DNA of 64,000 nucleotides from a virus: the IMG/VR virus record IMGVR_UViG_3300045110_000277, positions 22,080 to 86,079 of that record. One strand, written 5' to 3'. The translations under genes were made by a program, and so were the position numbers. Positions 390 through 18,426 of this stretch are shown here, one piece after another (position 1 is the first letter of the stretch; every line of letters starts with the position of its first letter). Below the pieces are notes generated by a model. It did not search any database. It saw nothing but the letters and a program-made list of their open reading frames with translations, and had not been told where the DNA came from.

Positions 390-920
390 ATGGCCAGCAC
401 GAAGCTGAAGCCCCGCAACGACCACGAGGAGATCTGGGAGGTCCAGATCCCCGGCACGATCTACCTGCAGGTCACCACCCACAACCGGCACGGCCAGTCG
501 ATGGACGCCGACCTGGCGCTGGGCCCGAACAAGGTCGGCCACCAGTTCCGCATCTCCGACGCCGACCGGGTGATGAACCAGGAGCGCATCCAGGACTCGA
601 TCAACGACCCGTTCACCAACGGGATGCTGATCCGCTGCGACGCCGACCAGCAGGCCGACGAGGACACCGCCTCCGACCAGGCGCTGTCGGCCGCCGACCT
701 GACGCTGATCTTCGACCAGCACGGCGCGGTGTTCGAGAACGCCATCCGCCCGCTCGGCGAGATCAACCTGCGCCGGCTGCTGGACATCGGCTCGGCGATG
801 GACGCCTCCCACAAGCAGATCGAGACCTTGGAGGAGCTGATCCGCGAGCGGTACGGCAAGGGCGGGGCGCAGGACCTCGACCAGGCCCAGCTGCTGTCAG
901 GCGGGCTGCTCCCCGGCTGA
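390..920 (+). CDS. Conserved hypothetical head-region protein
   Basis: A 176-aa protein with a ribosome site GAGGAGA just upstream of its ATG. The N-terminal half looks like beta strands and the C-terminal half (about 115-165) like a helical region with regular Leu/Ile/Glu spacing. No known motif is visible. It is followed at once by a very strong hairpin terminator, which in phages often marks the end of an abundantly expressed structural gene. Confidence 0.75.
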   Translation: MASTKLKPRNDHEEIWEVQIPGTIYLQVTTHNRHGQSMDADLALGPNKVGHQFRISDADRVMNQERIQDSINDPFTNGMLIRCDADQQADEDTASDQALSAADLTLIFDQHGAVFENAIRPLGEINLRRLLDIGSAMDASHKQIETLEELIRERYGKGGAQDLDQAQLLSGGLLPG

Positions 921-1053: not shown

Positions 1054-1833
1054 ATGACCGAGACCGTGCCGCACATCCGCATCACCGTCGGCAACTCGTC
1101 GCCGCACGAGCTGTTCGACCACGACCCGGAGAACCTCGGGGACCAGTACCGTCTCCAGGTCCGCGGTGGCGAGGTCATCTCGACCCCGGACGGCGAGCCG
1201 GACATCCACCGGGTGCCGCTGGAGCTGGGCAACAACACGGTCATCGAGTGGCCGCACGAGTCGCCCATCGACCACCTGCTGCCGACCATCAAGCAGCTGT
1301 GGGGCAAGCACTCCGCCGACCCGGGCACCTGGGTGGTCATCGAGAACGACGGCGACGACCCGGCTCGCGCGGCCTTGGTGAAGGCGCTCCTGGAGGCGTA
1401 CTTCAACATCCGGCAGCCGGACCCGGGCGAGATCACCGCGCTGGTGACCAACGCGGGCCTGGACTTCATCGCCAAGCAGCTCTCGGGCGGCACGGCGTCG
1501 GCGACAGCGGTGGCGAAGTGGATGGCCCTGACGGCCAACGCCTCGGCGGCGTCCGCCTCGGACACCACGCTGACCGCGGAGATCGCCACCGGCGGCGGTG
1601 GCCTGATCCGCGCCGTGGCCACGTACGCACACACCGGCTCGGCGAGCACGTACACGCTGACCATCACGTACACGGCGAACGGCTCGGACTCCCTGCCGGT
1701 CACCATCGCCAAGATGGGCGTGTTCGACGCGGCCTCCACCGGCAACCTGGTCTACGAGACGCTGCTCTCGGCGACCGCCACGCTGACCGCCTCAGGTGAC
1801 CAGCTCACCGTGACGGAGACGGTCACGATCTGA
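1054..1833 (+). CDS. Virion structural protein with Thr/Ser/Ala-rich C-terminal domain
   Basis: 259 aa. The N-terminal about 110 residues are acidic and mixed alpha/beta. The C-terminal 130 residues are rich in Ala, Thr and Gly with alternating hydrophobics, typical of beta-sandwich decoration or fibre-tip domains in actinophages. The ribosome site AGGGAGG precedes the ATG. The next gene begins 2 nt after the stop. A capsid-decoration or fibre role is inferred from composition and position. Confidence 0.7.
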   Translation: MTETVPHIRITVGNSSPHELFDHDPENLGDQYRLQVRGGEVISTPDGEPDIHRVPLELGNNTVIEWPHESPIDHLLPTIKQLWGKHSADPGTWVVIENDGDDPARAALVKALLEAYFNIRQPDPGEITALVTNAGLDFIAKQLSGGTASATAVAKWMALTANASAASASDTTLTAEIATGGGGLIRAVATYAHTGSASTYTLTITYTANGSDSLPVTIAKMGVFDAASTGNLVYETLLSATATLTASGDQLTVTETVTI

Positions 1834-1835
1834 CC

Positions 1836-2192
1836 ATGGCGCTGATCCTGGCCGACCGGGTGAAGGACACGTCGACCACAACCGGGACCGGCACCCTGAC
1901 GCTGGCTAACAGCGCGCCCGCGGGCTTCCAGACCTTCGGGTCGGTGATGGCCGACGGGGACGTGTGTTGGTACGCCCTGGTCGACTCCTCGGGCGCGTGG
2001 GAGACCGGCATCGGCACGTACACGGCCAGCGGCACGCACCTGAGCAGGGACACGGTGTTCTCCAGCTCGAACGCGAACGCGCTGGTGAACATCGCGGCTG
2101 GCACCACGACCGTCTTCCTCACGATGCCGGCCAAGCAGGCCATGACCCAAGGCGTAGCCGTCGCAACCGCCCTCGGCTGGGCCGGAAACTAG
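1836..2192 (+). CDS. Conserved phage structural protein (fibre N-terminal-type domain)
   Basis: 118 aa. It matches a domain common at the start of actinophage fibre proteins: an N-terminal L-x-D-R-V-K-D-T, a central W-E-x-G-I-G-T-Y segment, then L-S-R-D-T-V and a C-terminal V-F-L-T-x-P-A-K. Here it stands alone rather than leading a long fibre. It begins 2 nt after the previous stop, so it is likely translationally coupled, and probably links a fibre or decoration to the particle. Confidence 0.7.
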   Translation: MALILADRVKDTSTTTGTGTLTLANSAPAGFQTFGSVMADGDVCWYALVDSSGAWETGIGTYTASGTHLSRDTVFSSSNANALVNIAAGTTTVFLTMPAKQAMTQGVAVATALGWAGN

Positions 2193-2201
2193 GAGCTGAG
2201 C

Positions 2202-2657
2202 ATGGCCGCCAACCAGAGCCCGATCTTCACTCTGACGCCGAAGATCGGTCGCAAGGCGTGGACCTCCTCGACGACGGCGAACACCAAGTCCGACGGCGCG
2301 GGCACCATCGGCACCGACATCCTGCTGGTGTTCACCGGCGGCACCAACGGATCGTTCCTGAACCGGGTGCGGCTGTCCCCGTACGCCTCGGCCGCGGGCA
2401 CCGCGACCACCCCGACCGTCGCGCGGCTGTACCTGTCGACGCAGACCTCCTCGACGACAACGGCCGCTGACACCTCGCTGTTCGCGGAGGCGGCCTGCCC
2501 GGCCCAGACCGCTGACCAGGCGACCACGGCGACGAACTTCATCGAGATCCCGTGCGGCTTCTACATCCCGTCCACGATCAGCCTGCTGGTGTCGATGCAC
2601 CACGCCGCAGCTGCCAACACCGGCTGGCAGTTCATCGCCTTCTACGGCGACTACTGA
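2202..2657 (+). CDS. Putative virion protein, Thr-rich
   Basis: 151 aa, Ser/Thr/Ala-rich and predicted mostly beta. It contains N-x-V-R-L-S-P-Y and a hydrophobic C-terminus ending F-I-A-F-Y-G-D-Y. It lies inside the structural cluster with a short gap on each side. Similar lone beta proteins neighbour fibre genes in actinophages, but I cannot name a family. Confidence 0.65.
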   Translation: MAANQSPIFTLTPKIGRKAWTSSTTANTKSDGAGTIGTDILLVFTGGTNGSFLNRVRLSPYASAAGTATTPTVARLYLSTQTSSTTTAADTSLFAEAACPAQTADQATTATNFIEIPCGFYIPSTISLLVSMHHAAAANTGWQFIAFYGDY

Positions 2658-2663
2658 GCCGCC

Positions 2664-3584
2664 GTGTTCGAGGACTACCTGGACGTTCTCGGCCAGTCCC
2701 GGGCGGACGTGCAGCTGTTCAAGGCCGGGGCCAACGCGCAGACGTGGCGCAAGCCCCGCGGCGCGCAGATGCTGCACATCGTGCTGTTCACCGCTGGTGG
2801 CGGTGGCGGCGGTGGGATGACCGGCCTGACGGCGACGGTGCGCGGTGGTGGCGGTGGCGGCGGCGGCGGCGCGATCATCCAGGCGATCATCCCGCTGTAC
2901 TACCTGCCTGACGTGCTGTACCTGTCGGTGCCCCGTGGTGGCGCGGGTGGCGCGGCGACGGTGAACGGCTCGGCAGGCAGCATCCAGTCGCTGGTGTTGA
3001 CCAACAACGTGACGCCCGCGGCTCCGGCGGGAAGCGACATCGTGCTCGGTGGCCAGGCCGGCTTCCTCGGCGCCGGGGGTACGGCCGGCTCTACGGGCGG
3101 CTCGGCGTCCGGTGGCTCGGGTGCGGGCGCTTCCAACGCCAACGGCGGCTGGGCGGTGATGGGCATCCGCAGCTTCCTGGCTGGCGGGAACGGCGGCGCG
3201 GGCGGTGTGGTCGGTGGCGGTGCGGGCACGGGCCTCACCATCGCCGGTGCGTCGCCGTACCGGATCTTCGGCGGCGCTGGCGGGGCGACAACGCCCGCTG
3301 GCAACAACGACTTCGCCGGCGGCGGCTTCACCGGCGCGGGCCTGTTCCCCAGCACGGCAGGCGGCACGGCCGGTGGCGGCAAGGGCGACGGGTCCCCGGC
3401 CTACTTCAACGGCTCCCTGGTCGTCTACGGCGGCACGGGTGGCGGCTCAGCGGGCGCTGGGACCGGCGGCGACGGTCAGGACGGTGGGTACCCGGGCGGC
3501 GGTGGTGGCGGCGGTGGCGGCGGCATCACGGGCGGCAAGGGCGGCAAGGGCGGCGACGGGCTCACGATAATGATTGCCTGGTGA
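2664..3584 (+). CDS. Glycine-rich fibre-like protein (copy 1 of 3)
   Basis: 306 aa from a GTG. The N-terminal about 45 residues contain V-Q-L-F-K-A-G and W-R-K-P-R-G-A-Q-M-L; the rest is dominated by Gly with poly-Gly runs at about 48, 66 and 285. The other two copies follow directly and share the same plan: V-F-x-A anchor, W-x-x-x-R-R-G-D-like segment, V-R-G(n), a L-I-P-x-x-x-L-P-D hydrophobic strand and a final G-D-G-L. Such proteins usually form flexible fibre or decoration domains in actinophages. Confidence 0.75.
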   Translation: MFEDYLDVLGQSRADVQLFKAGANAQTWRKPRGAQMLHIVLFTAGGGGGGGMTGLTATVRGGGGGGGGGAIIQAIIPLYYLPDVLYLSVPRGGAGGAATVNGSAGSIQSLVLTNNVTPAAPAGSDIVLGGQAGFLGAGGTAGSTGGSASGGSGAGASNANGGWAVMGIRSFLAGGNGGAGGVVGGGAGTGLTIAGASPYRIFGGAGGATTPAGNNDFAGGGFTGAGLFPSTAGGTAGGGKGDGSPAYFNGSLVVYGGTGGGSAGAGTGGDGQDGGYPGGGGGGGGGGITGGKGGKGGDGLTIMIAW

Positions 3585-3588
3585 GCTG

Positions 3589-4527
3589 ATGTTCCTCGAC
3601 GCGATGGACGCACCGCCGTTCAACCTCGGCGCCAGCGACCTGCAGGTGTTCAAGGCGCAGGCGCCGGGCACCCAGGTCTGGCAACAGTGGCAGCGCCGAC
3701 GCGGCGACACCATGTGCATGATCACCTGCCTGGGCGCGGGCGGCTCTGGTGCGGGCGGCATGACCGGTGCGACCGGCTCGGTCCGCGGTGGCGGTGGCGG
3801 TGGTGGCAGCGGAGCGGTCGCCCGGCTGCTCATCCCGGTCTTCTTCCTGCCCGACACGCTGTTCATCAACGTGGGCAAGGGCGGGGCCGCGGTCGCCGCG
3901 GTTGCCGCGGGGAACCCGGGCAGTCTCAGCTACGTCAGCGTGGCCCCGAACACCACCGCGACCAACATCCTGCTGCAGTCCGGCGCGGCGGCAGCTACGG
4001 CGGCCACGGCGGGCTCCACGGGCGGCTCGGCGGCTGGCGGGGCGGCGGAGACCATCTCCACCATCGCGCTGTGCCTGCTGGCGAACCTGGGCATCGTGGA
4101 GTTCGCGGCCGGGCGGGCGGGGGCCATCGGCGGGGTGGTCGGCGGCGGGGCGGGCACCGCGATCACGTGGAACGCGGCGACGTACCCGATCCAGTCCGGC
4201 TCGGGTGGCGGGACCACGCCGGCGGCCAACAGCCAGTTCGCCGGCGGGGCCCAGACCGGCTCCGGCTTCACGCTGCCAACGGTCGCTGGCGGCGCGTCTG
4301 GTGGCAACCCGGGCGACGGCACCATGGGCCCGCCGAACAACGGGGTCGGTGGGTGGGCCTCCTACGGCGGCGTCGGTGGTGGCACCGGCGGGGCCGCCGG
4401 TCAGGTCGGTGGCAAGGGTGCAGACGCCGCGGGGTACGGCGGTGGCGGTGGCGGTGGAGGCGGTGGCGTGACCGGCGGTGGCGGTGGGGCCGGAGGCGAC
4501 GGCCTGGTCACCATCGTCAGCTGGTAG
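3589..4527 (+). CDS. Glycine-rich fibre-like protein (copy 2 of 3)
   Basis: 312 aa. I start it at ATG 3589, four bases after the stop of copy 1, because copies 1 and 3 also begin M-[FY]-x-D. An in-frame TTG at 3574 would add five residues. It has the shared plan of the family: V-F-K-A-Q near residue 21, R-R-R-G-D, V-R-G followed by Gly runs, L-L-I-P-V-F-F-L-P-D, and a C-terminal Gly block ending G-D-G-L-V. Confidence 0.75.
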   Translation: MFLDAMDAPPFNLGASDLQVFKAQAPGTQVWQQWQRRRGDTMCMITCLGAGGSGAGGMTGATGSVRGGGGGGGSGAVARLLIPVFFLPDTLFINVGKGGAAVAAVAAGNPGSLSYVSVAPNTTATNILLQSGAAAATAATAGSTGGSAAGGAAETISTIALCLLANLGIVEFAAGRAGAIGGVVGGGAGTAITWNAATYPIQSGSGGGTTPAANSQFAGGAQTGSGFTLPTVAGGASGGNPGDGTMGPPNNGVGGWASYGGVGGGTGGAAGQVGGKGADAAGYGGGGGGGGGGVTGGGGGAGGDGLVTIVSW

Positions 4528-4562
4528 CCAGATGACCCTTCCGCCGAGCCGATAGGACGAGC

Positions 4563-5462
4563 ATGTACCAGGACCACTTCGGCTTCCCGCCGCCAGCTCC
4601 TGGGGACACGCAGGTCTTCCGCGCCGGACCGATCTGGGACACCTGGCACAAGCGTCGCGGCGACACGATGCTGTACATCGTCGCCTTCGGCTCGGCCGGC
4701 GGCGGGGGCGGCGGCAAGACCAACGCCATCGGCAACGCGCGAGGCGGCGGCGGCGGGGGCGGCTCGGGCGCCATCATGCGCCTGCTCATCCCGCTCTACC
4801 TGGTGCCCGACATCCTGTACGTCTTCGTCGGCCGGGGCGGCGCCGGTGGCACGCCGGGTAACCCGGGCTCCTCGGGCGACTTCAGCCTGGTCAGCTTCCA
4901 GCCGTCCACCTCGCTCGACGTGCTGGTCAAGACCGGGAACGCGGTGGCCGGCGGCGGGGCGGCCGGCACGACCGGCTCCAACGCTGGTGGCTCGGCCGGC
5001 ACCATCGCCACGCTGGCGAACTGCCCGATGGCCGCCTTCGGCATGGCCAACTTCATCGCCGGGAAGATCGGTGCGGCGTCCGGCGCGAGCACCGGTGCGG
5101 CCGGGCTCAACAACACCATCGCCACCACGCACCAGCTGAACGGCGGTGCGGGCGGCGGCACCACGCCCACCGGCAACACCGAGTTCGCGGGCGGCGACCA
5201 GACCGGGGCGGGCATCTTCCCGACGGTCACCGGCGGCGCGGGTGGCGGCAACCCTGGGCCCGGGGCGGGCGGACTGCTGCTGGACCGCCCGTTCATGTCC
5301 TACGGCGGCTCAGGCGGTGGCACGGGCGGCGCGGCAGCGACCGTTGGCGGCCGTGGTGGAAACGGTGCCGTCGGCTCCGGCGGTGGCGGCGGTGGCGGGG
5401 GTGTCACCGGCGGGACCGGTGGCTCCGGCGGCGACGGCCTCGTGCTGATGACGAGCTGGTGA
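4563..5462 (+). CDS. Glycine-rich fibre-like protein (copy 3 of 3)
   Basis: 299 aa, ATG start after a 35-nt gap. Same architecture as the two upstream paralogs (Q-V-F-R-A-G, K-R-R-G-D-T-M-L, L-L-I-P-L-Y-L-V-P-D, terminal G-D-G-L-V-L). The middle regions of the three differ more than the ends, as expected for duplicated display proteins under diversifying selection. It ends four bases before the repeat-rich fibre gene. Confidence 0.75.
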   Translation: MYQDHFGFPPPAPGDTQVFRAGPIWDTWHKRRGDTMLYIVAFGSAGGGGGGKTNAIGNARGGGGGGGSGAIMRLLIPLYLVPDILYVFVGRGGAGGTPGNPGSSGDFSLVSFQPSTSLDVLVKTGNAVAGGGAAGTTGSNAGGSAGTIATLANCPMAAFGMANFIAGKIGAASGASTGAAGLNNTIATTHQLNGGAGGGTTPTGNTEFAGGDQTGAGIFPTVTGGAGGGNPGPGAGGLLLDRPFMSYGGSGGGTGGAAATVGGRGGNGAVGSGGGGGGGGVTGGTGGSGGDGLVLMTSW

Positions 5463-5465
5463 GCC

Positions 5466-7355
5466 GTGGCCTTCGGCGGCGATAGCGCCTTCTCCGAGTA
5501 CCCGTTCGCCGCACAGGCGGCCGGGCAGCAGCTCACGCGCACCACTTCTGACGACGCGACGGTCAGCGACTCGGTGGCGCGCTCTGTGGTCCTCGCGCGC
5601 ACTACGTCGGACGCGGTGGGCTCCATCGCGGCCGTTCCAGCCAACGCGACGATCATCATGGGCGCGGCTGGCTGGATTACCAGCGGCACCGGCAACAGCC
5701 ACCCCATCGTGATGACCATTCCGGCCGGGGCCCGGGTCAACGACCGGGTGTACATGGCGTTCGGCGAGAACGGTGGCGTCGCCATTCCCGTTCCGACCGG
5801 GTGGCGGCCGATCCTGGTTCCCGCTGCGTACAACGGCAACATCCTCAGCTGCGCCATCTTCGAGCGGGACGCGCTGCTCGGGGTGGGCGAGGCTGGCTCC
5901 ACGGTCACCGTCGACATCGGCCAGAGCCGGGTGCAGATCGGCGTGATCTTCACCAGCGACGGCGACCTGGACGCGGTGAGCGCGGTCAGCAACCAGACCT
6001 CGCTGCAGTCCACGAACACGGTGCCCGCGGTCACCCCGGTCACTGACAACGCGCTGCTGCTGGAGATCGCGTTCCTGGTCTCCACCACGAACGCCCAGAC
6101 GTACACGAGCACGCCACCGACCGGCTACAGCACGCTGTTCGACCAATGCACCTCGAACGCGGGCGCGAACAAGAACATCGAGATCTTCATCGCCAGCAAG
6201 CAGCTGTCCGGCCAGAAGACGATCTCGCAGGGTCCGACCTTCTCCACCCCGTCGGTGCAGACAGAATCGGTGGTGGTGTCGCTGACGTTGACCCAGGCCG
6301 CCAAGGAGCGGGCGGTCGCCAACGTCGGCCGGTTCGCCTCGACCAGCGACAACGCCACGGTCAGCGAGACGGCGGTGCGCTCCGCCGAGGTGTACGCCCG
6401 CACGACCGCCGACAGCGTGCCCGTCAGCGAGAGCCTGGCCCGTACTGCACAGGTGTTCAGCCGCACCACGAGTGACTCGGTGGTGGTCTCCGAGGCGCTG
6501 TCCAGCCACGTCACGGTGGCCCGCACCACGGCCGACTCCGTGGTGGTCAGCGAGGCCGCGGTCCGCTCCGCTGACAACTACTCGCGCACGGCCTCCGAGA
6601 CTGCCACGGTCTCCGAGACGGTTGCCCGGTCGCTGCTGCAGGCTCGCGCCCCGTCGGACGCCGTGTCCGTCTCGGACACCACCACCCGCGTGGTCGCCCA
6701 GTCCCGTACTACCTCGGACAACGCCACGGTCTCCGACGTGGCCTCCGGCGTCATCGGCGGCAACCTGCACCTCACGCGCACCGCGTCGGACTCGATCAGC
6801 ACCAGCGAGTCGGTGGCCCGGATCGTCGTCCTGCCCCGCGCGGTGGCCGCTTCGGTGCCCGTCAGCGAGAGCCTGGCCCGCACCGCGCAGGTCTTCGCCC
6901 GGTCCACCTCGGACAGCGTGGCCGTCGTCGAGTCGGCGACCCGCTCGGCCGAGGTCTTCGCTCGCACGAGCTCGGACAGCGTGCCGGTCTCGGATGCCAA
7001 CGCTCGTTCGCAGCATGACTTCAGGTCGACTGGGGAGTCGGTCCCGGTCAGTGAGGCGGCGACTCGGGCTTCCCAGGCGTTCGCCCGGACGACGGCCGAC
7101 ACCGCCGTGGGAGCCGCCTCGGTCTCCTCGCACACCGCCGCGTCGCGCACCACGTCGGACTCGTTCGCGGTCGGCACCAGCACGCCCACCCCGGTGTACG
7201 TGCCGTCCATCAAGGATCCGGAGATCGAGGAGGCCGGCGCCCTGGTTGGCGTCACCACCACGGGCGTGGTGCTCGGCGTGACCACCACGAGCGTGCTGCT
7301 CGCATCGCCCACGCTCGGCGCCGATATCGACCCCATCGACACGATGACTCGCTGA
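5466..7355 (+). CDS. Repeat-rich fibre protein
   Basis: 629 aa from a GTG that follows the upstream stop by three bases. Two copies of a Thr-Ser-Asp-rich repeat open the protein. Residues about 55-280 form a mixed domain of lectin or beta-sandwich type (my inference). About 14 further repeats of roughly 20 residues follow (pattern R-T-T-[SA]-D-S-V-x-V-S-E-x-x-x-R), then a short tail with repeated G-V-x-T-T-x-V-x-L. The regular repeats suggest an elongated stalk. Three copies of the same unit begin the tail protein at 18427. Confidence 0.8.
   Translation: MAFGGDSAFSEYPFAAQAAGQQLTRTTSDDATVSDSVARSVVLARTTSDAVGSIAAVPANATIIMGAAGWITSGTGNSHPIVMTIPAGARVNDRVYMAFGENGGVAIPVPTGWRPILVPAAYNGNILSCAIFERDALLGVGEAGSTVTVDIGQSRVQIGVIFTSDGDLDAVSAVSNQTSLQSTNTVPAVTPVTDNALLLEIAFLVSTTNAQTYTSTPPTGYSTLFDQCTSNAGANKNIEIFIASKQLSGQKTISQGPTFSTPSVQTESVVVSLTLTQAAKERAVANVGRFASTSDNATVSETAVRSAEVYARTTADSVPVSESLARTAQVFSRTTSDSVVVSEALSSHVTVARTTADSVVVSEAAVRSADNYSRTASETATVSETVARSLLQARAPSDAVSVSDTTTRVVAQSRTTSDNATVSDVASGVIGGNLHLTRTASDSISTSESVARIVVLPRAVAASVPVSESLARTAQVFARSTSDSVAVVESATRSAEVFARTSSDSVPVSDANARSQHDFRSTGESVPVSEAATRASQAFARTTADTAVGAASVSSHTAASRTTSDSFAVGTSTPTPVYVPSIKDPEIEEAGALVGVTTTGVVLGVTTTSVLLASPTLGADIDPIDTMTR
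6333..7195 (+). repeat. About 14 tandem degenerate 60-nt coding repeats
   Basis: Each unit encodes about 20 residues built around T-[ST]-[SA]-D-x-[VA]-x-V-S-[ED]. The repeat is clear at protein level and diverged at DNA level, so it is old or under purifying selection. Copy-number change by recombination could alter fibre length. Confidence 0.75.
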
Positions 7356-7364
7356 GAGGCTGCG

Positions 7365-7727
7365 ATGACCGTCCAGACCGTCCACATGAAGCAGAACGAC
7401 CTGCTTCCGCAGCTCCAGGCGACCCTGACCAGCACCGACCCGATCACGGGCGTGGTGTCCAACGTCGACCTGACCACGGCCACGTTGATCCACTTCTACA
7501 TGAAGAACGCGATCAGCGGACTGAAGGTCTCGGCGCTGGCGGTGCGCGCGGTGGACCAGTCGGTCGACACCGGGCAGGTCACGTACACCTGGCAGGGCAC
7601 CGACACCGACACGGCCGGGAAGTTCCAGGGCGAGTTCGAGGTGGTCTGGGCGAGCGGTAAGCGGGAGACGTTCCCGAACGACAGCTACTTCATCATCAAC
7701 ATCCACGCCGACCTCGGGAACGCCTGA
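7365..7727 (+). CDS. BppU-like baseplate/fibre anchor domain protein
   Basis: 120 aa, ATG with GAGAGG upstream. The pattern V-H-M-K-Q-N-D near the start, a central hydrophobic I-H-F-Y-M-K strand, then Y-T-W-Q-G-T-D-T-D-T-A-G-x-F-x-G-E-F-E-V and F-P-N-D is that of the small Ig-like proteins annotated as BppU-family baseplate upper protein in actinophages. It follows the fibre genes and may attach one of them. Confidence 0.65.
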   Translation: MTVQTVHMKQNDLLPQLQATLTSTDPITGVVSNVDLTTATLIHFYMKNAISGLKVSALAVRAVDQSVDTGQVTYTWQGTDTDTAGKFQGEFEVVWASGKRETFPNDSYFIINIHADLGNA

Positions 7728-7781: not shown

Positions 7782-8330
7782 ATGACCACACTCGCTCCGC
7801 TGATCCCGGCGCTCAAGCGCGAGGTGTCAGGACCCGGTGAGTTCGACGCCGACTTCCCGTCCTCCGACGACGGCGAGCTGCTCGGCGGACTCGCGGATGC
7901 CTTCGGCCAGGCCCAGCTCGACGGCTTCTTCGGCACGGTCACTCTCGACCTGGTGACGGTGGAGACCGACAAGGACCTGAGCATCGCCGCACAGCAGCTG
8001 GTGGTCATCTACGCGGGCGAGCGCATCCTGCGCAGCAAGCTCCGCAACCTGAACACCAAGACGCTGTACAAGGCTGGCGGCGTGGAGTACGCGACGGAGA
8101 ACAGCGCCGGCGCGATCACCCAGCTGCTCAAGGACATCCAGGCGCGCAAGCAGCAGCTGCTCGACCAGATCCTGCGGATCGGCCGGGCGCAGAACGCGGT
8201 CCACGTCACCGACGGCTACCTGATCCGCAGCCAGGGCTACTTCCCGCTGGGGATGTGGGGCGAGTTCGGCGGGTTCTTCGGCTACGAGATCGGCGGCCTC
8301 GGCGGCTCGATGACTGGCCTTCTGTTCTGA
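7782..8330 (+). CDS. Head-to-tail adaptor-like protein
   Basis: 182 aa. The N-terminus (L-x-P-A-L-K-R-E-V...G-E-F...F-P...L-L-G-G-L-A-D-A-F) and the central A-Q-L-D-G-F-F segment match the head-to-tail adaptor proteins that precede the stopper and tail terminator in actinobacterial siphoviruses. A long helix follows at about 75-125. Position just upstream of the connector and terminator genes supports the call. Confidence 0.65.
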   Translation: MTTLAPLIPALKREVSGPGEFDADFPSSDDGELLGGLADAFGQAQLDGFFGTVTLDLVTVETDKDLSIAAQQLVVIYAGERILRSKLRNLNTKTLYKAGGVEYATENSAGAITQLLKDIQARKQQLLDQILRIGRAQNAVHVTDGYLIRSQGYFPLGMWGEFGGFFGYEIGGLGGSMTGLLF

Positions 8331-8360: not shown

Positions 8361-8807
8361 ATGGCGAACCCTGGGATCTCGGGCTTCGACGCTGCTGCCG
8401 TGCGCGCTGGGCTCCGTCTGGCCATGCAGGTGGGGCTGCCCATCACGGCGTCCGAGCGGCCGACCTTCTTCATGCCGCAGACCGTCACCGCCACCGGCCA
8501 CAACCTGGACGGCTCCAAGGTGCCGTTCGACCCGACGGTGCAGCCCACCAGGTCCGCGCGCCAGACGCACCAGGTGCCGTGCGCCATCGAGTACGCCGAT
8601 GGCACCGGGAAGATTGCGGCGCTCGGGATCATCGACCCGGCGACCGTGGTGCTGACGCTGCTCGACGAGGACTACGCGACCGTGCGGGGCTTCGAGTTCG
8701 TCGTCATCACCGGCCAGAAGTTCTTCTACCGCAGCACGGAGCCGGGCCAGGGCCTGGTGGATGTGGGCATCTGGCGCGTCCGCTGCGTCTCGGAGGATGA
8801 GGGATGA
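8361..8807 (+). CDS. Head-tail connector (stopper-like)
   Basis: 148 aa, mostly beta by pattern, in the slot where siphoviruses encode the head-closure or stopper protein. The stop overlaps the tail-terminator start (ATGA), so the two are coupled. The family is inferred from order and size; no catalytic motif is expected. Confidence 0.6.
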   Translation: MANPGISGFDAAAVRAGLRLAMQVGLPITASERPTFFMPQTVTATGHNLDGSKVPFDPTVQPTRSARQTHQVPCAIEYADGTGKIAALGIIDPATVVLTLLDEDYATVRGFEFVVITGQKFFYRSTEPGQGLVDVGIWRVRCVSEDEG

Positions 8808-10499: not shown

Positions 10500-12158
10500 A
10501 TGGCGATCAAGGCTGGCAACATCGTCCACGTCGGTAACGACACGTACCTGATCAACCGCATCCAGACGGGCGGTCCCGGCCAGGTCAACATCAAGCGCGA
10601 GACGGTCCGAGAGGTCGGCAACTACCTCTCGGTCGGTCAGGTCGTGGACACTCCCGACCTGTCCTTCTCGCTGGAGTCCTACGACGTGAGCTGCGCCCTG
10701 GAGGCGCTGATGCTCGACGAGGACCCGACGATCACCCACACGTACGACCTCTCCGCCGCCGTGCCCCTGAACATCAAGGGCGCGTTCAAGGGCGGGCTGA
10801 CGGCGACCTCCCCGTACGCCACGGTCGACTCGGTGGCCATCCCGTACCTCCTGCTGGAGTCGATGGCCTACAAGTTCGGGCTCAAGACCGACGCCAGCCA
10901 GACGGCCACCCTGAAGGGTGACTCGATCTACTACAACCCGGGCTCGACGTACATCGAGTCTGCGGCCGGTCTCGGCCAGCCCGCGGTGGCCACGGTCACC
11001 AACAAGGCGCTGACCTCCAACGTCGCCACGCTGACGGTGGGCTCCTCGCACGGCATCGCGGTCGGCCACGTCATCACGGTGGCCGGCGTCGACTCCACGT
11101 TCAACGGGACCAACCTGGTCGTGACCGCGGTGGCCTCCACCACGATCAGCTACGCGGTCGTCCACGCGAACGTCGGCTCGACGGGCGCCTCGGGCACGGT
11201 CACCACGACCGGCCAGGAGATCGTCACGGCGCACGCGGCCTACGCGGTCACCGAGGGCGGCGTCGTCCGGCGCACGCTGTCGGTGGGCACCAAGACCCGC
11301 CGGCTGAACCTGGGCACCGACTACACCGAGACCTACGGCGGCGTCACCGCCGAGGCCGCGGTGACCACGGTCCACACCATCGGGGCTCTGGCGGCCACCG
11401 ACCGGCTGCGCATCATGTACGCCTCGCCCACGGTCGAGTCGTTCCTGCAGACGGTCCACGCGGTTGTCACGGGCACGGCGGGCACCATCACCGGGGCCAC
11501 CTCGGTGTCGGGCACCAGCCTCCTGGTCAACGCGACCGCGCTGTACGCCGTCGGCGACGTGATCATCATCGACGACGGGCTGGGCACGGTCGAGCTGGTC
11601 AAGGTGTCGGCCATCTCCGGGACGGTGGGTGCGCAGACGCTGACCGTCTCCGCGCTGACCCAGAACCACCTCGACGGGGCGGCCATCGCCACGTACGTGC
11701 CGACCGTCCGCCCGGCCGCGATCCGTGGGCGCGACATCGACGTGTACATCAACAGCGTCAAGAAGATCAGCGTCCAGAGCGTGGACCTGACCTGGAAGGT
11801 GACGCTGGAGCCGGACGAGGAGTTCGGCAACTACCACTACGTCGACCAGGACTTCGAGGTCCCCGACGTGTCCGGCACCATCGACTTCAAGCCGCGTGAC
11901 GCCGCGGAGATGCTGGCCCTGATGCAGCAGCTCGCGGGTGTCACCGACGCGCTGCAGTCGGCGCCGGCCACCTCGGCCCCCGCGATCCGCGTGGACATCT
12001 GCCTGAAGAACCCGGTCGACGGCCGGATCCTCAAGCGGCTGATGGTGCCGGACGCACGGTTCGACATGCCCGGCTACTCCGCGAAGGTCCTGCAGAAGCT
12101 GGACTTCTCGGCGAAGTTCACGTCCGACACCGGAGCCCTGACGGTCTCCGACAGCTGA
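10500..12158 (+). CDS. Major tail protein with inserted Ig-like module
   Basis: 552 aa, long for a siphovirus tail-tube protein. The first about 150 residues (I-K-A-G-N-I-V-H-V-G, S-Y-D-V-S-C-A-L-E-A-L) and the last about 130 (I-D-V-Y-I-N-S-V-K-K-I, D-F-E-V-P-D-V-S-G) look like a split tube domain. The middle holds a module starting V-T-N-K-A-L-T-S-N-V-A-T-L-T-V that recurs in actinophage surface proteins and probably protrudes. A ribosome site (CAAGGAGG) precedes the ATG and strong hairpins follow, as expected for a highly expressed gene. Confidence 0.75.
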   Translation: MAIKAGNIVHVGNDTYLINRIQTGGPGQVNIKRETVREVGNYLSVGQVVDTPDLSFSLESYDVSCALEALMLDEDPTITHTYDLSAAVPLNIKGAFKGGLTATSPYATVDSVAIPYLLLESMAYKFGLKTDASQTATLKGDSIYYNPGSTYIESAAGLGQPAVATVTNKALTSNVATLTVGSSHGIAVGHVITVAGVDSTFNGTNLVVTAVASTTISYAVVHANVGSTGASGTVTTTGQEIVTAHAAYAVTEGGVVRRTLSVGTKTRRLNLGTDYTETYGGVTAEAAVTTVHTIGALAATDRLRIMYASPTVESFLQTVHAVVTGTAGTITGATSVSGTSLLVNATALYAVGDVIIIDDGLGTVELVKVSAISGTVGAQTLTVSALTQNHLDGAAIATYVPTVRPAAIRGRDIDVYINSVKKISVQSVDLTWKVTLEPDEEFGNYHYVDQDFEVPDVSGTIDFKPRDAAEMLALMQQLAGVTDALQSAPATSAPAIRVDICLKNPVDGRILKRLMVPDARFDMPGYSAKVLQKLDFSAKFTSDTGALTVSDS

Positions 12159-13419: not shown

Positions 13420-16400
13420 GTGGCCGAGAACGTCGAAATCAACGTAACCGCCAACGCCTCGTCGCTCGGCACGGCTGCCGCGGACATCGAGCGCCTCGAC
13501 GCCGCGCTCGCGCTGCTGGGCAGCCGGTCGTCCGCCGGGGCCGCGGTCGCCGCCACCCTCGGTGAGATCGCCAGCGGGGCGGTCACCGCCACCGGCTTCC
13601 TGGAGGAGTTCCTCGCCACCGCCGAGAGCGGGTCCGCTGGGGCAGCCTCGGCGCTGCGCAGCCTCATCACCCAGGTCGAGGCGTACGTGGGCGCCCAGGA
13701 GGCCGCAGCGGTCGCCCAGCAGGCTGCCAATGGCGAGGCGGCGACCGCCTACGAGCGGGTCGTGCTGGGCGCTGGGGCGGCCGTACAGGCCACGGAGGCC
13801 CAGACCGCAGCGGTGACCCTGCTGACGGCCGCGAACGCGGAGCTGGCCAAGGTCGAGGCGCAGGTCTCCATCGAGCGCGAGCGGGCCGCGGCCAAGGCGT
13901 CCATCGCGGCGGCCCCGAACATCGGCACGAACGTCGCCGGCAACGCGGTCGGCTCTGCGGCCGGCATCGGCGGGTTCGTCGCCGGCCAGGACAGCCGCTT
14001 GAAGGACGCCGAGGCCCGCGCGATCCAGCTGCTCAACGAGCGCGGCGTCGCGGACGCCCAGCTGATCCTCTACACCACGGCGCTGGGCAAGGCCGCCCTG
14101 GCGGCGGTGGCCACCGAGGAAGCCTTCGTCGACATCCAGTCCAAGGACAACGCGGCCACCCAGACGCTGATCCGGTCCAAGAGCGCGGCGGTCGCAGCCC
14201 AGGACAAGCTGAACATCCTGGCCGCCGAGGACGTGTCCAGCGGCGGGCGCGGCCGGGGCGGCGGCAACTTCTCTGGGCTGTCGGACAGCTCCGGTGGCAG
14301 CTTCCTGGGCCAGCTCGGGACCACGTTCAAGTACATCGCCTTCTACCAGGTGTTCCAGCTGCTGCTGACCACGTTCAAGGACAGCGTGGAGGCGTCGGCC
14401 AACTACGACCGCGCGGTCACGAACCTGGGCATCGCGCTCGCGGGCACCGACGTGGACGCGGGCAACCTGGCGAACAGCCTGGGCCAGATCGGCACCCGGG
14501 CCGGCATCGCGGCGTCCGAGGCGGTCGCGGCCGGCACGCAGTACCGCCGGGCGTTCCCCTCCGCCGACCCGACGCAGGCGGCGCTGGCCGGCGCGAGCAC
14601 CATCTCGACGCTGGCCGTGATCGGTGACCCGAAGACGGCGCAGGCCAACAGCGCCGACGTGCTCGCGGTGCTGGCCAACTACAACCTCGGGATCGAGGGC
14701 ACCACCCGGGTGCTGGACGCGGCCACCGCTGCCGCGCAGGCGTTCGGGCTGTCCGGCCCCAACGACGTGCTGCCGGGCCTGGCCCAGATCTCCGACGTGG
14801 GCGCCGCGCAGGGCTTCTCGCCCGAGGAGCTGGCCGCCACCGTCGCCACCATCGTGCAGCGCACGTCGGAGACCAGTCAGGCCGCGGCCGGGGAGCTGCA
14901 GCGATTCCTGGGCCGTGAGGGCGGCAACGCCGTCCAGCAGGTCTTCGCCAGCTTCGGGGTCGACACGACCAAGAAGTTCGCCGACGAGCTGCGCCAGTTC
15001 GAGCCCATCTTCGAGCAGCTGACCGCGGCCCAGCAGCAGGCGGTCGTCTCCGAGCTGGGCGGTGGCCGGGCGGCCCCGGCCGTGCAGGCCGTGCTCGACA
15101 CGTACAAGCAGATCGAGCAGGTCGCCACCGCCGACAACGCGGGCAAGGCGCAGGAGCAGGAGATCGCCCGCCTGGCCGACCTGAAGGGCCTGCTGACCCA
15201 GATCGGCGGTGACTTCCAGGAGCTGTACAAGGACATCGGCTCGTCCGGCATCGGGGTCATCTTCGGGGTTGCCCTGCAGGAGCTGGACCCGCTGCTCAAG
15301 GGCGTCGATGACCTGCTCCAGCTGTGGAACGAGATGCCCGGCCCGATCAAGCAGATCACCGCGGCGGTCGTCGAGCTGTCGGTGGCGCTGGCGCTGCTCG
15401 GCAAGGGTGAGGGCGTCGGCCTGCTTGGGTCCATCGGCGCCGGTGGCTCCAAGGTGCTCGGCAAGCTCGGGCTGGGTGGGCTGCTCGGCGGCGGTGGCGA
15501 GGCGGCGGGACTCGCTGGAGCTGCGGGCGGCGACCTGTCAACGGTCATTGGCACCTCCGAGATCGGCGCTGCCACCGGTGGCCTGGAGGGCGTGGCGGCC
15601 GGTGGCGGGGCGGTGGCCACGCTGGTGCCGTACATCGCCCCGGCCATCGTCGGGCTGATCGCGCTCGGCGCGTGGAAGGACATCAACGACAAGACGAACA
15701 AGGCGATTGCCGACGCGGGCACCGCCAAGCAGCTGGACTCGGCGGACTCCGCTGCGGCGTACAAGGACCTGGCGTCGAAGTTCGCCACCGCCAAGACCGA
15801 GGTGCCGACCGGCTTCGTCACGTCGCTGTTCGGCAAGGGCGTCGAGAACGACCAGCTGATCGCCGACCTCGACAAGCTGCAGAAGTTCGCCGAGGCGCAG
15901 TCCAAGGCGTACTCCGACGCGGCAGCCGCACGGGGCACCGGCACGGCGTTCACCAACAACGGCGAGGTCGACTTCCAGGGCCTGTTCACCTCGCTGCACG
16001 GCTCGGGCCAGTCCAGCGCGGAGATGCTGAAGCAGCTCACCGACGCGATCTTCGGGCTGGGCGGTGCGGCGGGCACCACGGCGCAGCGACTGGTCAACGA
16101 CAAGGGCACCATCGACGCGCTCGCTCGCGGTGCGACGGCGACCGGTTTCGACAAGCTGTTCAATGAGCGGCTGCCGATCCCCGGTGGCCCGGTGGTCGCC
16201 TTCGACGGCATCGGCAACCCGGCCATCCCCGGCTCGCAGTCGGTGCAGTCGCCCAGCCTGAACGACCAGAACTCCCAGGCGCAGAAGCTGTTCGAGGCTG
16301 GCGTCAACGAGTCGATCACCAAGGCTGCCTCGACGCTGCCGGCCGGTGCGCCGCTGAACGCCAGCACCATCGCGGCGATGAAGGCGGCGGCCGACAAGTT

Positions 16401-17985
16401 CGCCGAGTCGACGTTCCCGAAGGCGCAGCTGCCGACGGCCATCAAGACGATCAACGACAACATCGACAAGACGTACGCGACCCTGCAGGCCGGGCTCGCC
16501 GCGCTCGCCAGCGGCAAGGGCATCAGCGACACCCAGCTCGCGTCGCTGTTCGGTGGCGGCGGCTACGTGCAGGCCGTGCAGGACACGATCTCCGGCATCG
16601 GCTCCCTGACCAACTTCGTGGAGCAGACCCGGCAGGGCAACCAGCTGCTGCTGACCGCCCAGCACGCCCTGCAGATCGCGCTGGCCAGCGGGAAGGCCGC
16701 CGACATCGACCAGGCCCGTGCCGGGCTGGCGCTGGCCCAGGCACAGGTCGACCAGCAGGCGGTGTCCAACGCGCAGCAGCTGATCGCGCACATCAAGGCG
16801 ACGCAGGGCAACACGGCGCGGGCGCGGGCGGCCATCGTTCAGGTCGAGCGCCAGCTGGTGGGAACGCTCGCTGGTAACCAGGACGTAAACGGTCTCATCG
16901 CCGCGTTCGCCAACATGGACAAGGCGACCATCGCCTCGGTGGTGCGCTCCGCGGAGGCCGCGGTGCAGGCGGCGAAGGCGGCCGACGACGCGGCGAAGGA
17001 CATCATCGCCAAGAGCGCGGAGGCGGCCCAGCTTGCGGCCAACTACGCGGCCGGCTTCGGCGTCGCGCCGGCTACCGCTGCGGCGAACACCCCGGGCGCG
17101 AAGGCTGCGGACAAGGCGTACAACGATGCGCTGGCCCGGCTGGCGGCCATCAAGACCGCGGCCGGGGTGGCCTCTCCGAGCGGGTCGGACCTGAAGTTCC
17201 CGAAGCCCAGCGGTGGCGGCGACACGGCGGCGCAGATCGCTGCGGCCAAGGCGTCGGCTGCGGCCATCGCCGGGGACGCGATCTCCGAGGCGCAGGCCGC
17301 GGTGAGGGCCGCGCAGATCAACCTCGGTGCGGCCAAGAAGGGCAGCGTCGAGTTCTACAACGACCTGAAGGCGCTGCACGACGCGCAGTACCAACTGGCC
17401 ACCGCCGAGCAGACCCTGGCCAACCAGGCGCTGGCGCTGCGCGGCGACGTGACGGACCCGCTCGTGCAGGCCCGGGACAAGGTGATCGCCGACCGCAACA
17501 AGCTGGCGTACGACCGGGCGCGCGGGGCGAACACGACCGCGGATGCCTTGCAGCTCAAGCAGGATCAGGCCGCGCAGGAGAAGACGGCGTTCGAGCAGAA
17601 GTTCTCCGACGAGCAGACCGCGTACCAGCTGAACCAGATCAGCTACCAGAGCTACATCAACTACCTGGAGGCCCAGCACAACCTGCTGACGGCCGTTCAC
17701 AAGAAGACCCGCGACCAGATCGACGAGCTCAACCAGGTCGACTCGGCGTTGCAGGCCGCGCAGCAGCAGCTGTCCGGCCAGTTCAACATCGGCGCGATCC
17801 AGCTGCCGACCATCTACGAGGTGCGTCGGTCCATCGCGGCAACGGCCGCTGGCACCACGTACCAGGGCTCGACGCAGAACACGATCTACATCACCGGCAC
17901 GGACACCGCTGCCGTCAAGAAGGTCATCCAGGACGTGCTGGGCCCCACCGCCTCGCAGACGCGCACCGTCGCCGGAAGGAAGTAA
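13420..17985 (+). CDS. Tape measure protein
   Basis: 1521 aa from GTG 13420, chosen because AGGAGGTGA ends six bases upstream; an in-frame codon at 13393 is inside the palindromic repeat. It sets tail length and passes through the tube at DNA ejection. Long Ala-rich helical stretches cover most of the protein, with hydrophobic segments at about 300-315, 640-660 and 731-753, and coiled-coil-like repeats in the last third (about 1100-1450). It is the longest gene in the window, placed after the frameshifted chaperones as usual. Confidence 0.93.
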   Translation: MAENVEINVTANASSLGTAAADIERLDAALALLGSRSSAGAAVAATLGEIASGAVTATGFLEEFLATAESGSAGAASALRSLITQVEAYVGAQEAAAVAQQAANGEAATAYERVVLGAGAAVQATEAQTAAVTLLTAANAELAKVEAQVSIERERAAAKASIAAAPNIGTNVAGNAVGSAAGIGGFVAGQDSRLKDAEARAIQLLNERGVADAQLILYTTALGKAALAAVATEEAFVDIQSKDNAATQTLIRSKSAAVAAQDKLNILAAEDVSSGGRGRGGGNFSGLSDSSGGSFLGQLGTTFKYIAFYQVFQLLLTTFKDSVEASANYDRAVTNLGIALAGTDVDAGNLANSLGQIGTRAGIAASEAVAAGTQYRRAFPSADPTQAALAGASTISTLAVIGDPKTAQANSADVLAVLANYNLGIEGTTRVLDAATAAAQAFGLSGPNDVLPGLAQISDVGAAQGFSPEELAATVATIVQRTSETSQAAAGELQRFLGREGGNAVQQVFASFGVDTTKKFADELRQFEPIFEQLTAAQQQAVVSELGGGRAAPAVQAVLDTYKQIEQVATADNAGKAQEQEIARLADLKGLLTQIGGDFQELYKDIGSSGIGVIFGVALQELDPLLKGVDDLLQLWNEMPGPIKQITAAVVELSVALALLGKGEGVGLLGSIGAGGSKVLGKLGLGGLLGGGGEAAGLAGAAGGDLSTVIGTSEIGAATGGLEGVAAGGGAVATLVPYIAPAIVGLIALGAWKDINDKTNKAIADAGTAKQLDSADSAAAYKDLASKFATAKTEVPTGFVTSLFGKGVENDQLIADLDKLQKFAEAQSKAYSDAAAARGTGTAFTNNGEVDFQGLFTSLHGSGQSSAEMLKQLTDAIFGLGGAAGTTAQRLVNDKGTIDALARGATATGFDKLFNERLPIPGGPVVAFDGIGNPAIPGSQSVQSPSLNDQNSQAQKLFEAGVNESITKAASTLPAGAPLNASTIAAMKAAADKFAESTFPKAQLPTAIKTINDNIDKTYATLQAGLAALASGKGISDTQLASLFGGGGYVQAVQDTISGIGSLTNFVEQTRQGNQLLLTAQHALQIALASGKAADIDQARAGLALAQAQVDQQAVSNAQQLIAHIKATQGNTARARAAIVQVERQLVGTLAGNQDVNGLIAAFANMDKATIASVVRSAEAAVQAAKAADDAAKDIIAKSAEAAQLAANYAAGFGVAPATAAANTPGAKAADKAYNDALARLAAIKTAAGVASPSGSDLKFPKPSGGGDTAAQIAAAKASAAAIAGDAISEAQAAVRAAQINLGAAKKGSVEFYNDLKALHDAQYQLATAEQTLANQALALRGDVTDPLVQARDKVIADRNKLAYDRARGANTTADALQLKQDQAAQEKTAFEQKFSDEQTAYQLNQISYQSYINYLEAQHNLLTAVHKKTRDQIDELNQVDSALQAAQQQLSGQFNIGAIQLPTIYEVRRSIAATAAGTTYQGSTQNTIYITGTDTAAVKKVIQDVLGPTASQTRTVAGRK

Positions 17986-17988
17986 CCC

Positions 17989-18420
17989 ATGATCCACAAG
18001 GTGTATGGCAGCTCGCTGATCACCATGGTGAACGGCGAGTGGGCCTTCATCGGCGGCTCCGTCAAGGCGCTGCTGTGCTCCGCCTCGTACACGCCGAACC
18101 AGGACACGCACAAGTACCGCAGCGACCTCACCAACGAGCTGAGCACCGCTGGTGGCTACACCGCGGGCGGCGTCGTGCTGGGCACCAAGAGCACGCCGTA
18201 CACGGCGCTGACCAAGACGATGGCGTTGCTGTGCGCCAACATCGTCTACTCGGCGGTCACCCTGTCGGCGCGGTACTGCATCATCTACCTCGACACCGGG
18301 GTGAGCGGCACGAGTCCGCTGATCAGCTACATCGACTTCGGGTCCACGCAGTCACCGTCGAGCCAGAACCTCCAGCTGACCATCAACGCCGCCGGGCTGA
18401 TCACCTACCAGGTGGCGTAG
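17989..18420 (+). CDS. Minor tail protein, small beta protein
   Basis: 143 aa, ribosome site GGAAGGAAG. Contains S-x-K-A-L-L-C-S-A-S-Y-T-P-N-Q-D and Y-T-A-G-G-V-V-L, a pattern common in small actinophage virion proteins that sit just after the tape measure. Four cysteine residues are spread along the chain. Confidence 0.65.
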   Translation: MIHKVYGSSLITMVNGEWAFIGGSVKALLCSASYTPNQDTHKYRSDLTNELSTAGGYTAGGVVLGTKSTPYTALTKTMALLCANIVYSAVTLSARYCIIYLDTGVSGTSPLISYIDFGSTQSPSSQNLQLTINAAGLITYQVA

Positions 18421-18426
18421 CCGCCG

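Follow-up and report, generated by a model that had tools for sequence, protein, structure and literature searches.

A block of fibre-like genes located between the major capsid gene and the head-tail connector genes of the virus record IMGVR_UViG_3300045110_000277 raises the question of why such genes are found there and where on the virion their products would sit. The window studied here is a stretch of 64,000 nucleotides (guanine-cytosine (GC) content 68%) covering bases 22,080-86,079 of this linear record, which has 86,079 bases in total. The block (positions 1054-7727 of the window, called the cassette below) includes eight genes on one strand, and their third-position GC of 0.86-0.97 and strong codon bias indicate real coding frames. 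The cassette and its flanks are listed here, with protein lengths in amino acids (aa):

390..920, + strand: post176, conserved, bounds the pre-adaptor slot on the left (profile match in the relatives that reach this point)
1054..1833, + strand: 259-aa protein with a fibre-like C-terminal half (PF23140, 8jou_a, a relative in L004)
1836..2192, + strand: 118-aa protein, no relatives found in Pfam, PHROG or the proteins of related genomes
2202..2657, + strand: 151-aa protein, no relatives found in the same three sets
2664..3584, + strand: glycine-rich paralogue 1 (paralogy; PF21722 Gly_rich_2 at 5.2e-4, below the cut-off)
3589..4527, + strand: glycine-rich paralogue 2, longest frame starting at 3574 (paralogy; phrog_863 'tail fiber assembly' 4.7e-6, phrog_12500 minor tail 2.5e-4)
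4563..5462, + strand: glycine-rich paralogue 3 (paralogy; phrog_863 1.5e-6, phrog_754 minor tail 8.4e-5)
5466..7355, + strand: 629-aa repeat fibre (repeats of 20-21 residues, common to the 18427-20886 protein)
7365..7727, + strand: 120-aa protein of the BppU/T5-p132 type, predicted beta-sandwich, putative fibre-anchoring collar subunit (linked homology, predicted fold)
7782..8330, + strand: head-tail adaptor with a P22 gp4 / Sf6 gp7 type fold (predicted model), right boundary of the slot
8361..8807, + strand: putative stopper (by position)

The pre-adaptor slot in related phages

Just before the start of the window comes the major capsid gene (L003:6081-7055; phrog_16565, 3e-16; phrog_2522 major head protein, 1e-4). 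Its product was used to collect relatives, namely 27 IMG/VR viral contig loci with 61-84% identity and one annotated phage, GX15bay (41%). We then searched the six-frame translations of 31 loci with profiles of post176 and the adaptor. Both flanks were found in 22 of them; nine lacked one or both, and for two of these nine (L008 and L018) a second locus supplied the missing part. Near-duplicate loci were merged into lineages when they agreed in capsid identity and gap; no tree entered this step. The flanking genes are homologous in all lineages, while the slot between post176 and the adaptor gene is either filled (ten lineages including the window, 4.4-9.4 kb) or empty (six lineages, 31-217 bp), with nothing in between:

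Filled, kb: window 6.9, L008 8.3, L009 4.4, L012 5.1, L013 5.1, L015 5.7, L016 6.9, L018 9.4, L021 6.2, L025 7.4
Empty, bp: L006/L007 150, L019 217, L020 173, L022-L024 141, L027-L029 122, GX15bay 31

Slots of other genomes carry from three to nine called genes of quite different kinds, including a tail-collar fibre (PF07484, 1.7e-18), a polysaccharide deacetylase (1.6e-5), an LtfC-like protein (2e-6), LtfC/phrog_1084 beta-sandwiches and, in L008, L009 and L015, members of the phrog_240 'head protein' family (to 1e-16). The 906-aa slot protein of L021 looks like a pectate-lyase fibre by eye and gave nothing above the Pfam cut-off. Among the 14 slots that are filled or seen in part, four of which (L004, L010, L011 and L017) are cut by contig ends, 15 of the 91 pairs of genomes have any slot protein in common. 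Only two of the eight window proteins are related to a protein of another slot, namely those encoded first and last. The comparison is limited to plus-strand calls of 50 aa or more, which leaves aside, among others, a 516-aa minus-strand call in L016; the calls come from a home-made codon scorer that overlooked genes in part of the loci (L037 has no calls, L045 few). Judged by their sequences, the slot contents are adhesin-like but mostly unrelated. The comparison of gene order and content thus shows the cassette as one occupant of a fixed, hypervariable slot for adhesin-like genes between a conserved post-capsid gene and the adaptor gene.

The initial annotation had remarked that the fibre-like genes lie in the head-to-connector stretch, away from the usual site after the tape measure gene, and this was confirmed. 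It also considered them unusual in number, which we reject, since other occupants of the same hypervariable slot span the gene counts given above. Six of the 16 lineages leave the slot empty, so the cassette is better seen as an accessory module than as a component of the capsid lattice. No host could be identified, because none of the 105 candidates found with the capsid profile in a collection of genome contigs was confirmed.

Several relatives have a variable stretch between the capsid gene and post176 as well. A glycoside-hydrolase-like protein is encoded there in L012 (12234-13166; PF08924, 3.2e-12) and a 581-aa protein in L021 (12079-13824). Upstream of the capsid gene of L015 (2591-8613) there are three large genes (376, 693 and 905 aa) without a Pfam match, possibly a third fibre slot.

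Proteins of the cassette and the adaptor

The three tandem glycine-rich proteins contain 33.3, 27.9 and 30.1% glycine and are 43-48% identical to each other (E 1e-15 to 2e-26), so they are true paralogues by sequence, as was initially proposed. Their phrog_863 and minor-tail matches have to be discounted because of this composition, and the third paralogue has no match among PDB sequences. The repeat fibre of the initial annotation proved to be a 629-aa protein with a period of 20-21 residues across about residues 290-550. Its repeat unit also opens the 819-aa protein encoded at 18427-20886 (45-52% identity over 51-78 aa in the main matches, E 8e-8; 52 bits, with 23.1 bits for the best of 200 shuffles), and these two proteins are the only carriers of the unit among 1,074 proteins of this and related genomes. 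Tandem repeats in the DNA are short only.

The C-terminal half of the 259-aa protein resembles fibre I (gp80) of the podophage GP4 (PF23140, 4.3e-5; PDB chain 8jou_a, E 0.0045). This is a resemblance only, because the PF23140 score of 24.3 bits is below the curated cut-off of 27. The protein is 40% identical over 118 aa to the product of another slot gene, L004:13455-14132. No homologue was found for its N-terminal half, and a search for close relatives gave 13 candidate stretches of viral contigs, none confirmed, and likewise none in phage records.

The 120-aa protein, called BppU-like in the initial annotation, matches phrog_1627 (6.6e-9) and has no Pfam match of its own. It is 33-39% identical (tblastn) to HRTV-25 gp8 (E 2e-6) and CRP-6 gp56 (E 3e-11), both of which pass the 23.1-bit cut-off of PF10651 BppU_N (35.2 and 28.1 bits), while its 44% relative L025:18537-18869 stays just below it (21.4 bits). 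Linked homology therefore places the protein in the BppU_N family indirectly, and its earlier name is retained in this sense. A profile built from it and four relatives was compared with 395 short proteins; the top non-self matches were the slot proteins L018:9352-9738 and L013:14869-15240 and, ranked between these two, MiniFlayer g9, followed by a clear drop. The one significant match of the profile outside phages is the LPXTG-anchored surface protein 8yke_A (2.8e-4). Two further slot proteins that looked BppU-like by eye (L004:12167-12496 and L012:18482-18850) failed the profile comparison and were rejected.

The AlphaFold model of the 120-aa protein is nearly all-beta, with concordant top matches (mean predicted local distance difference test score, pLDDT, 60; best VIA-align Z 7.2). 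The two best VIA-align matches, 9C39_J (Z 7.2) and 9MT4_H (6.7), come from structures of the necks of phages Sf14 and Bas63. With Sf14 gp30 as the query, the same two entries were found, two chains each (9c39_I and 9mt4_G shown, the latter named 'Collar protein'), so these matches most likely represent the whisker/collar protein, chain J being assigned to gp30 from chain counts and residue numbers. Since the ranks that follow are taken by T5 p132 and baseplate proteins, the fold suggests a fibre-anchoring collar rather than specifically a neck protein.

No sequence match to the adaptor was found outside the present phage group. PDB sequence searches with both slot-bounding proteins gave weak unrelated chains or nothing, and those for post176 were of the weak, unrelated kind. 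The AlphaFold model of the adaptor, built from 11 relatives (mean pLDDT 67), aligns best with P22 gp4, Sf6 gp7, the phage 812 neck, the T1 adaptor and Douge connector chains (VIA-align Z 6.0-9.5 over 103-130 residues, values that by themselves can mean a common helical arrangement). All entries ranked 1-17 are phage neck, connector, adaptor or portal-tail entries, and the top three Foldseek matches are neck or connector entries too. The predicted fold is thus that of a head-tail adaptor of the P22 gp4 / Sf6 gp7 type, which means that the cassette precedes a head-tail connector gene. The initial annotation placed the cassette before adaptor and stopper genes: the former is supported by this model, while the stopper was named by position and had no PHROG or PDB-sequence match.

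On balance, we favour the view that the cassette is an accessory adhesion module with its fibres on a neck collar, although with only moderate confidence. The 120-aa protein would form a collar ring round the neck and sit on the adaptor, the product of the neighbouring gene, or close to it. This ring would hold flexible fibres made of the 629-aa repeat fibre, the glycine-rich proteins and the 259-aa protein with its fibre domain. We infer that these proteins are present in the virion; the fibres would make the first, reversible contact with surface glycans, and the tail tip would commit afterwards.

By eye, fibres encoded before BppU-type genes end in a strand-rich tail rich in valine, leucine and threonine (window 7248-7355, C-terminus of L050 gene 8), and in L013, L018 and L021 a similar strand-rich stretch opens the protein encoded just after the BppU-type gene. 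By analogy with what was proposed for T5 pb1 and p132, the fibre tail may be the part threaded into the collar.

It is very improbable that the genes were acquired by chance or as morons and contribute no part of the virion. They are hypervariable and optional, and the interior genes of the cassette are unique to the window genome, as could be expected of such genes. However, their strand and spacing match the structural operon, collar, deacetylase and fibre-type domains are found in the slots, and a tail protein has the same repeat unit as the cassette fibre.

A second slot after the tape measure gene

The window starts with a 79-aa gene and post176, continues with the cassette, the adaptor gene and small connector genes, and then reaches the probable major tail gene, the probable tape measure gene and further tail genes. 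The relevant tail genes are:

10500..12158, + strand: probable major tail protein (matches annotated Microbacterium phage major tail proteins over 53-61 aa, e.g., A3Wally, E 2e-7)
13420..17985, + strand: probable tape measure protein, 1521 aa (size and position)
17989..18420, + strand: 143-aa phrog_644 protein, first gene of the second slot (phrog_644, 1.8e-26)
18427..20886, + strand: 819-aa tail protein with N-terminal repeats, a long middle part and a C-terminal domain akin to the N-terminus of the next protein (sequence comparison)
20883..22181, + strand: 432-aa protein; its N-terminal part of about 130 aa, distal-tail-like by position, bounds the second slot (position, relatives)

The interval from the tape measure gene to the conserved distal-tail-like gene holds extra genes in five of nine genomes (window, G001, G003, G008 and G014) and none in G007, G010, G011 and GX15bay. 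Among the extra genes are those for phrog_644 proteins and for proteins that have a domain of the window's 819-aa protein at their C-terminus; the 1,670-aa protein of G001 has LamG and F5/8 type C domains. The phrog_644 protein of the window is 40-43% identical to Gordonia phage and phiCbK gene products and 39% to MiniFlayer g6, and a phrog_644 protein is also found in the pre-adaptor slot of L018.

In the nine genomes, both slots are occupied in three (window, G003 and G008), the pre-adaptor slot alone in two (G007 and G011), the post-tape-measure slot alone in two (G001 and G014) and neither in two (G010 and L031). The gene content of these genomes shows that the two slots fill independently. 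The idea that the cassette replaces missing tail fibres was rejected, as the two slots are not anticorrelated. The cassette genes are not simply displaced tail fibre genes either, because the phage also has related genes after the tape measure gene (17989-22181). Since phrog_644 proteins and a repeat unit occur in both slots, a common module pool may serve two adhesin sites. We tentatively suggest as a possibility that the family has two separate interchangeable sites, a neck collar and the tail tip, which are filled from this pool and swapped or lost independently.

Alternatively, the cassette could encode receptor fibres of the tail tip whose genes are oddly placed, the 120-aa protein being a T5-p132- or BppU-like collar of the distal tail. 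The best-known BppU/p132 proteins anchor fibres at tail tips, as described in PMC10038345, and 7QG9_J together with the 80alpha and NF5 baseplates is among the fold matches of the 120-aa protein. The repeat unit recurs in the post-tape-measure 819-aa protein, and an L013 slot protein has the classic tail-collar fibre domain. We nevertheless find this placement unlikely, given the separate slot directly after the tape measure gene, the independent filling of the two slots and the same gene layout in MiniFlayer, a phage of podovirus-like morphology.

Elsewhere, a conserved segment of about 60 residues links the probable major tail protein to tail proteins of Microbacterium phages that are unrelated to it otherwise. 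A stretch resembling a glycosidase barrel by eye, with a HEPE motif and no Pfam match, is present in both the 819-aa and the 432-aa tail protein (18427-22181). Upstream of the window there is a terminase gene (weak phrog_5909 match, 1.9e-4), and the portal and MuF/protease genes are probably also there, by position and without a PHROG name. No transfer RNA genes were found in the window, and a scan for sigma-70 promoters and terminators gave no information, with 0 and 2 hits where 0.4 and 2.6 were expected.

Neck collar, tail tip or capsid

The 120-aa BppU-like protein offers the best hint as to the location of the fibres. The neck is favoured because of the gene position beside the adaptor gene, the parallel with MiniFlayer and the optional neck-fibre gene of 936 phages. 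The latter phages have the nps gene for their neck passage structure (NPS) ahead of the major tail gene, as an optional gene, and PMC4759559 names immunogold transmission electron microscopy with NPS antibodies in one of its figure legends; according to PMC6669499, NPS N-termini have the BppU fold. The window resembles the NPS of lactococcal 936 and P335 phages in having optional fibre genes, here filled in 10 lineages and empty in 6 upstream of the major tail gene, together with a BppU-type domain. The reports on NPS describe a neck location seen by electron microscopy and tips that vary (sugar-binding, beta-helix, esterase-like). A single chain with an N-terminal BppU domain makes up the NPS, whereas the window has this domain in a separate 120-aa gene (7365-7727) after the fibre gene (5466-7355), has several adhesin candidates and keeps them in a pre-adaptor slot.

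In MiniFlayer, the capsid gene is followed by genes for a phrog_644 protein, a 68-aa protein, a 1376-aa LamG protein and a 111-aa BppU-like 'tail fiber' (gene 9), and then by the adaptor gene. Its genes 6-9 thus share with the window the capsid-to-adaptor order, a phrog_644 protein, a giant fibre and a small BppU-like protein. Transmission electron micrographs in PMC10690885 show short podovirus-like tail fibres that bind the helper's neck, and the paper describes a putative adsorption module absent from the sister satellite. In contrast to the window, MiniFlayer is a podovirus-like satellite with a LamG-type fibre, no glycine-rich trio and an adaptor without detectable kinship. A PHROG scan of nine proteins gave no match for seven of them.

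Sf14 gp30 is a whisker protein bound by the adaptor according to PMC11821841. The gp30/gp31 whiskers of Sf14, like the 'Collar protein' of Bas63, probably provide the best fold match of the 120-aa protein, and their genes stand among head genes, those of Sf14 after the portal gene. They have no detectable sequence similarity to the 120-aa protein, and no large fibres are described with these whiskers. T5 p132 is an immunoglobulin-like collar protein, structural kin of BppU, that anchors the L-shaped fibres and is likewise among the fold matches, but it sits at the tail tip.

Several observations weigh against the neck. BppU-type collars also sit at tail tips; T5 p132 (7QG9_J, Z 5.5) and the phage 80alpha and NF5 baseplates appear in the same VIA-align list as the neck structures. 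The model of the 120-aa protein is poor (best Foldseek E 0.04), its profile has no similarity to Sf14 gp30 (probability 0.1%), and the probability for MiniFlayer g9 is only 37%. The adaptor of the window has no detectable likeness to that of MiniFlayer. Of the 14 filled or partial slots, just five (window, L025, L013, L018 and L021) have a recognised collar-type protein. The location cannot be read from the modules, as the repeat unit of the cassette fibre is also present in a tail protein and phrog_644 and phrog_240 proteins are likewise known from gene sets of tails and baseplates.

The head fibre gene 8.5 of phi29 is located between capsid and connector genes. The initial annotation suggested that the cassette proteins may be head fibres or decorations. 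Such fibres would sit on capsid subunits and act in early host capture. This would agree with the location of the cassette behind the capsid gene and with the phrog_240 'head protein' members found in the slots of L008, L009 and L015. It would also agree with phiCbK gp75, a relative of the 17989-18420 protein: its gene precedes that of gp76, which PMC3556154 describes as a glycine-rich protein of 2,799 aa encoded nearer to head than to tail genes and proposes as the head filament. RcGTA head fibres are reported to bind the capsule, and HFTV1 turrets to have a deacetylase-like domain (PMC7296036, PMC12494034). The phiCbK pair resembles the window in combining a giant glycine-rich protein near head genes with a phrog_644 relative; it differs in that its filament is a single protein emanating from the top capsid vertex, while the phrog_644 gene of the window belongs to the other slot. 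No capsid-binding base domain of the phi29 gp8.5 or RcGTA type was recognised in the cassette by Pfam or PHROG, the fold comparison covering the 120-aa protein. The slot is optional, and the sole anchoring-type protein recognised is of the collar kind and is encoded beside the adaptor gene, which speaks more for the neck than for the capsid surface. We therefore consider a head location improbable.

In the haloarchaeal viruses HRTV-25 and HGTV-1 and in Roseobacter phage CRP-6, BppU-type genes lie beside terminase, portal or capsid genes (L046:2605-7645; L047:3250-3603; L048:2221-9315), and in HRTV-25 and CRP-6 large fibre-like genes adjoin them. The annotated tailspike gene of Bacillus phage Slash, a distant capsid relative (25.5%), is also located between the capsid and tape measure genes, although no slot homologue was found there. 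Given the genes of HRTV-25, HGTV-1 and CRP-6 and the published candidate gp76 of phiCbK, this kind of arrangement is already known.

What is added here, with no claim of first description, is a fixed pre-adaptor slot filled in an all-or-none manner across a phage family and independent of a post-tape-measure slot with which it has modules in common. The usual place to look for fibre genes is behind the tape measure gene; the present family offers a second, fixed one. The slot can be found by a profile of its two conserved bounding genes, and some genomes have recognisable collar-type anchors in it. This would allow receptor-binding candidates to be predicted in environmental phages, and the proposed neck-fibre role would become testable by comparing relatives with filled and empty slots.

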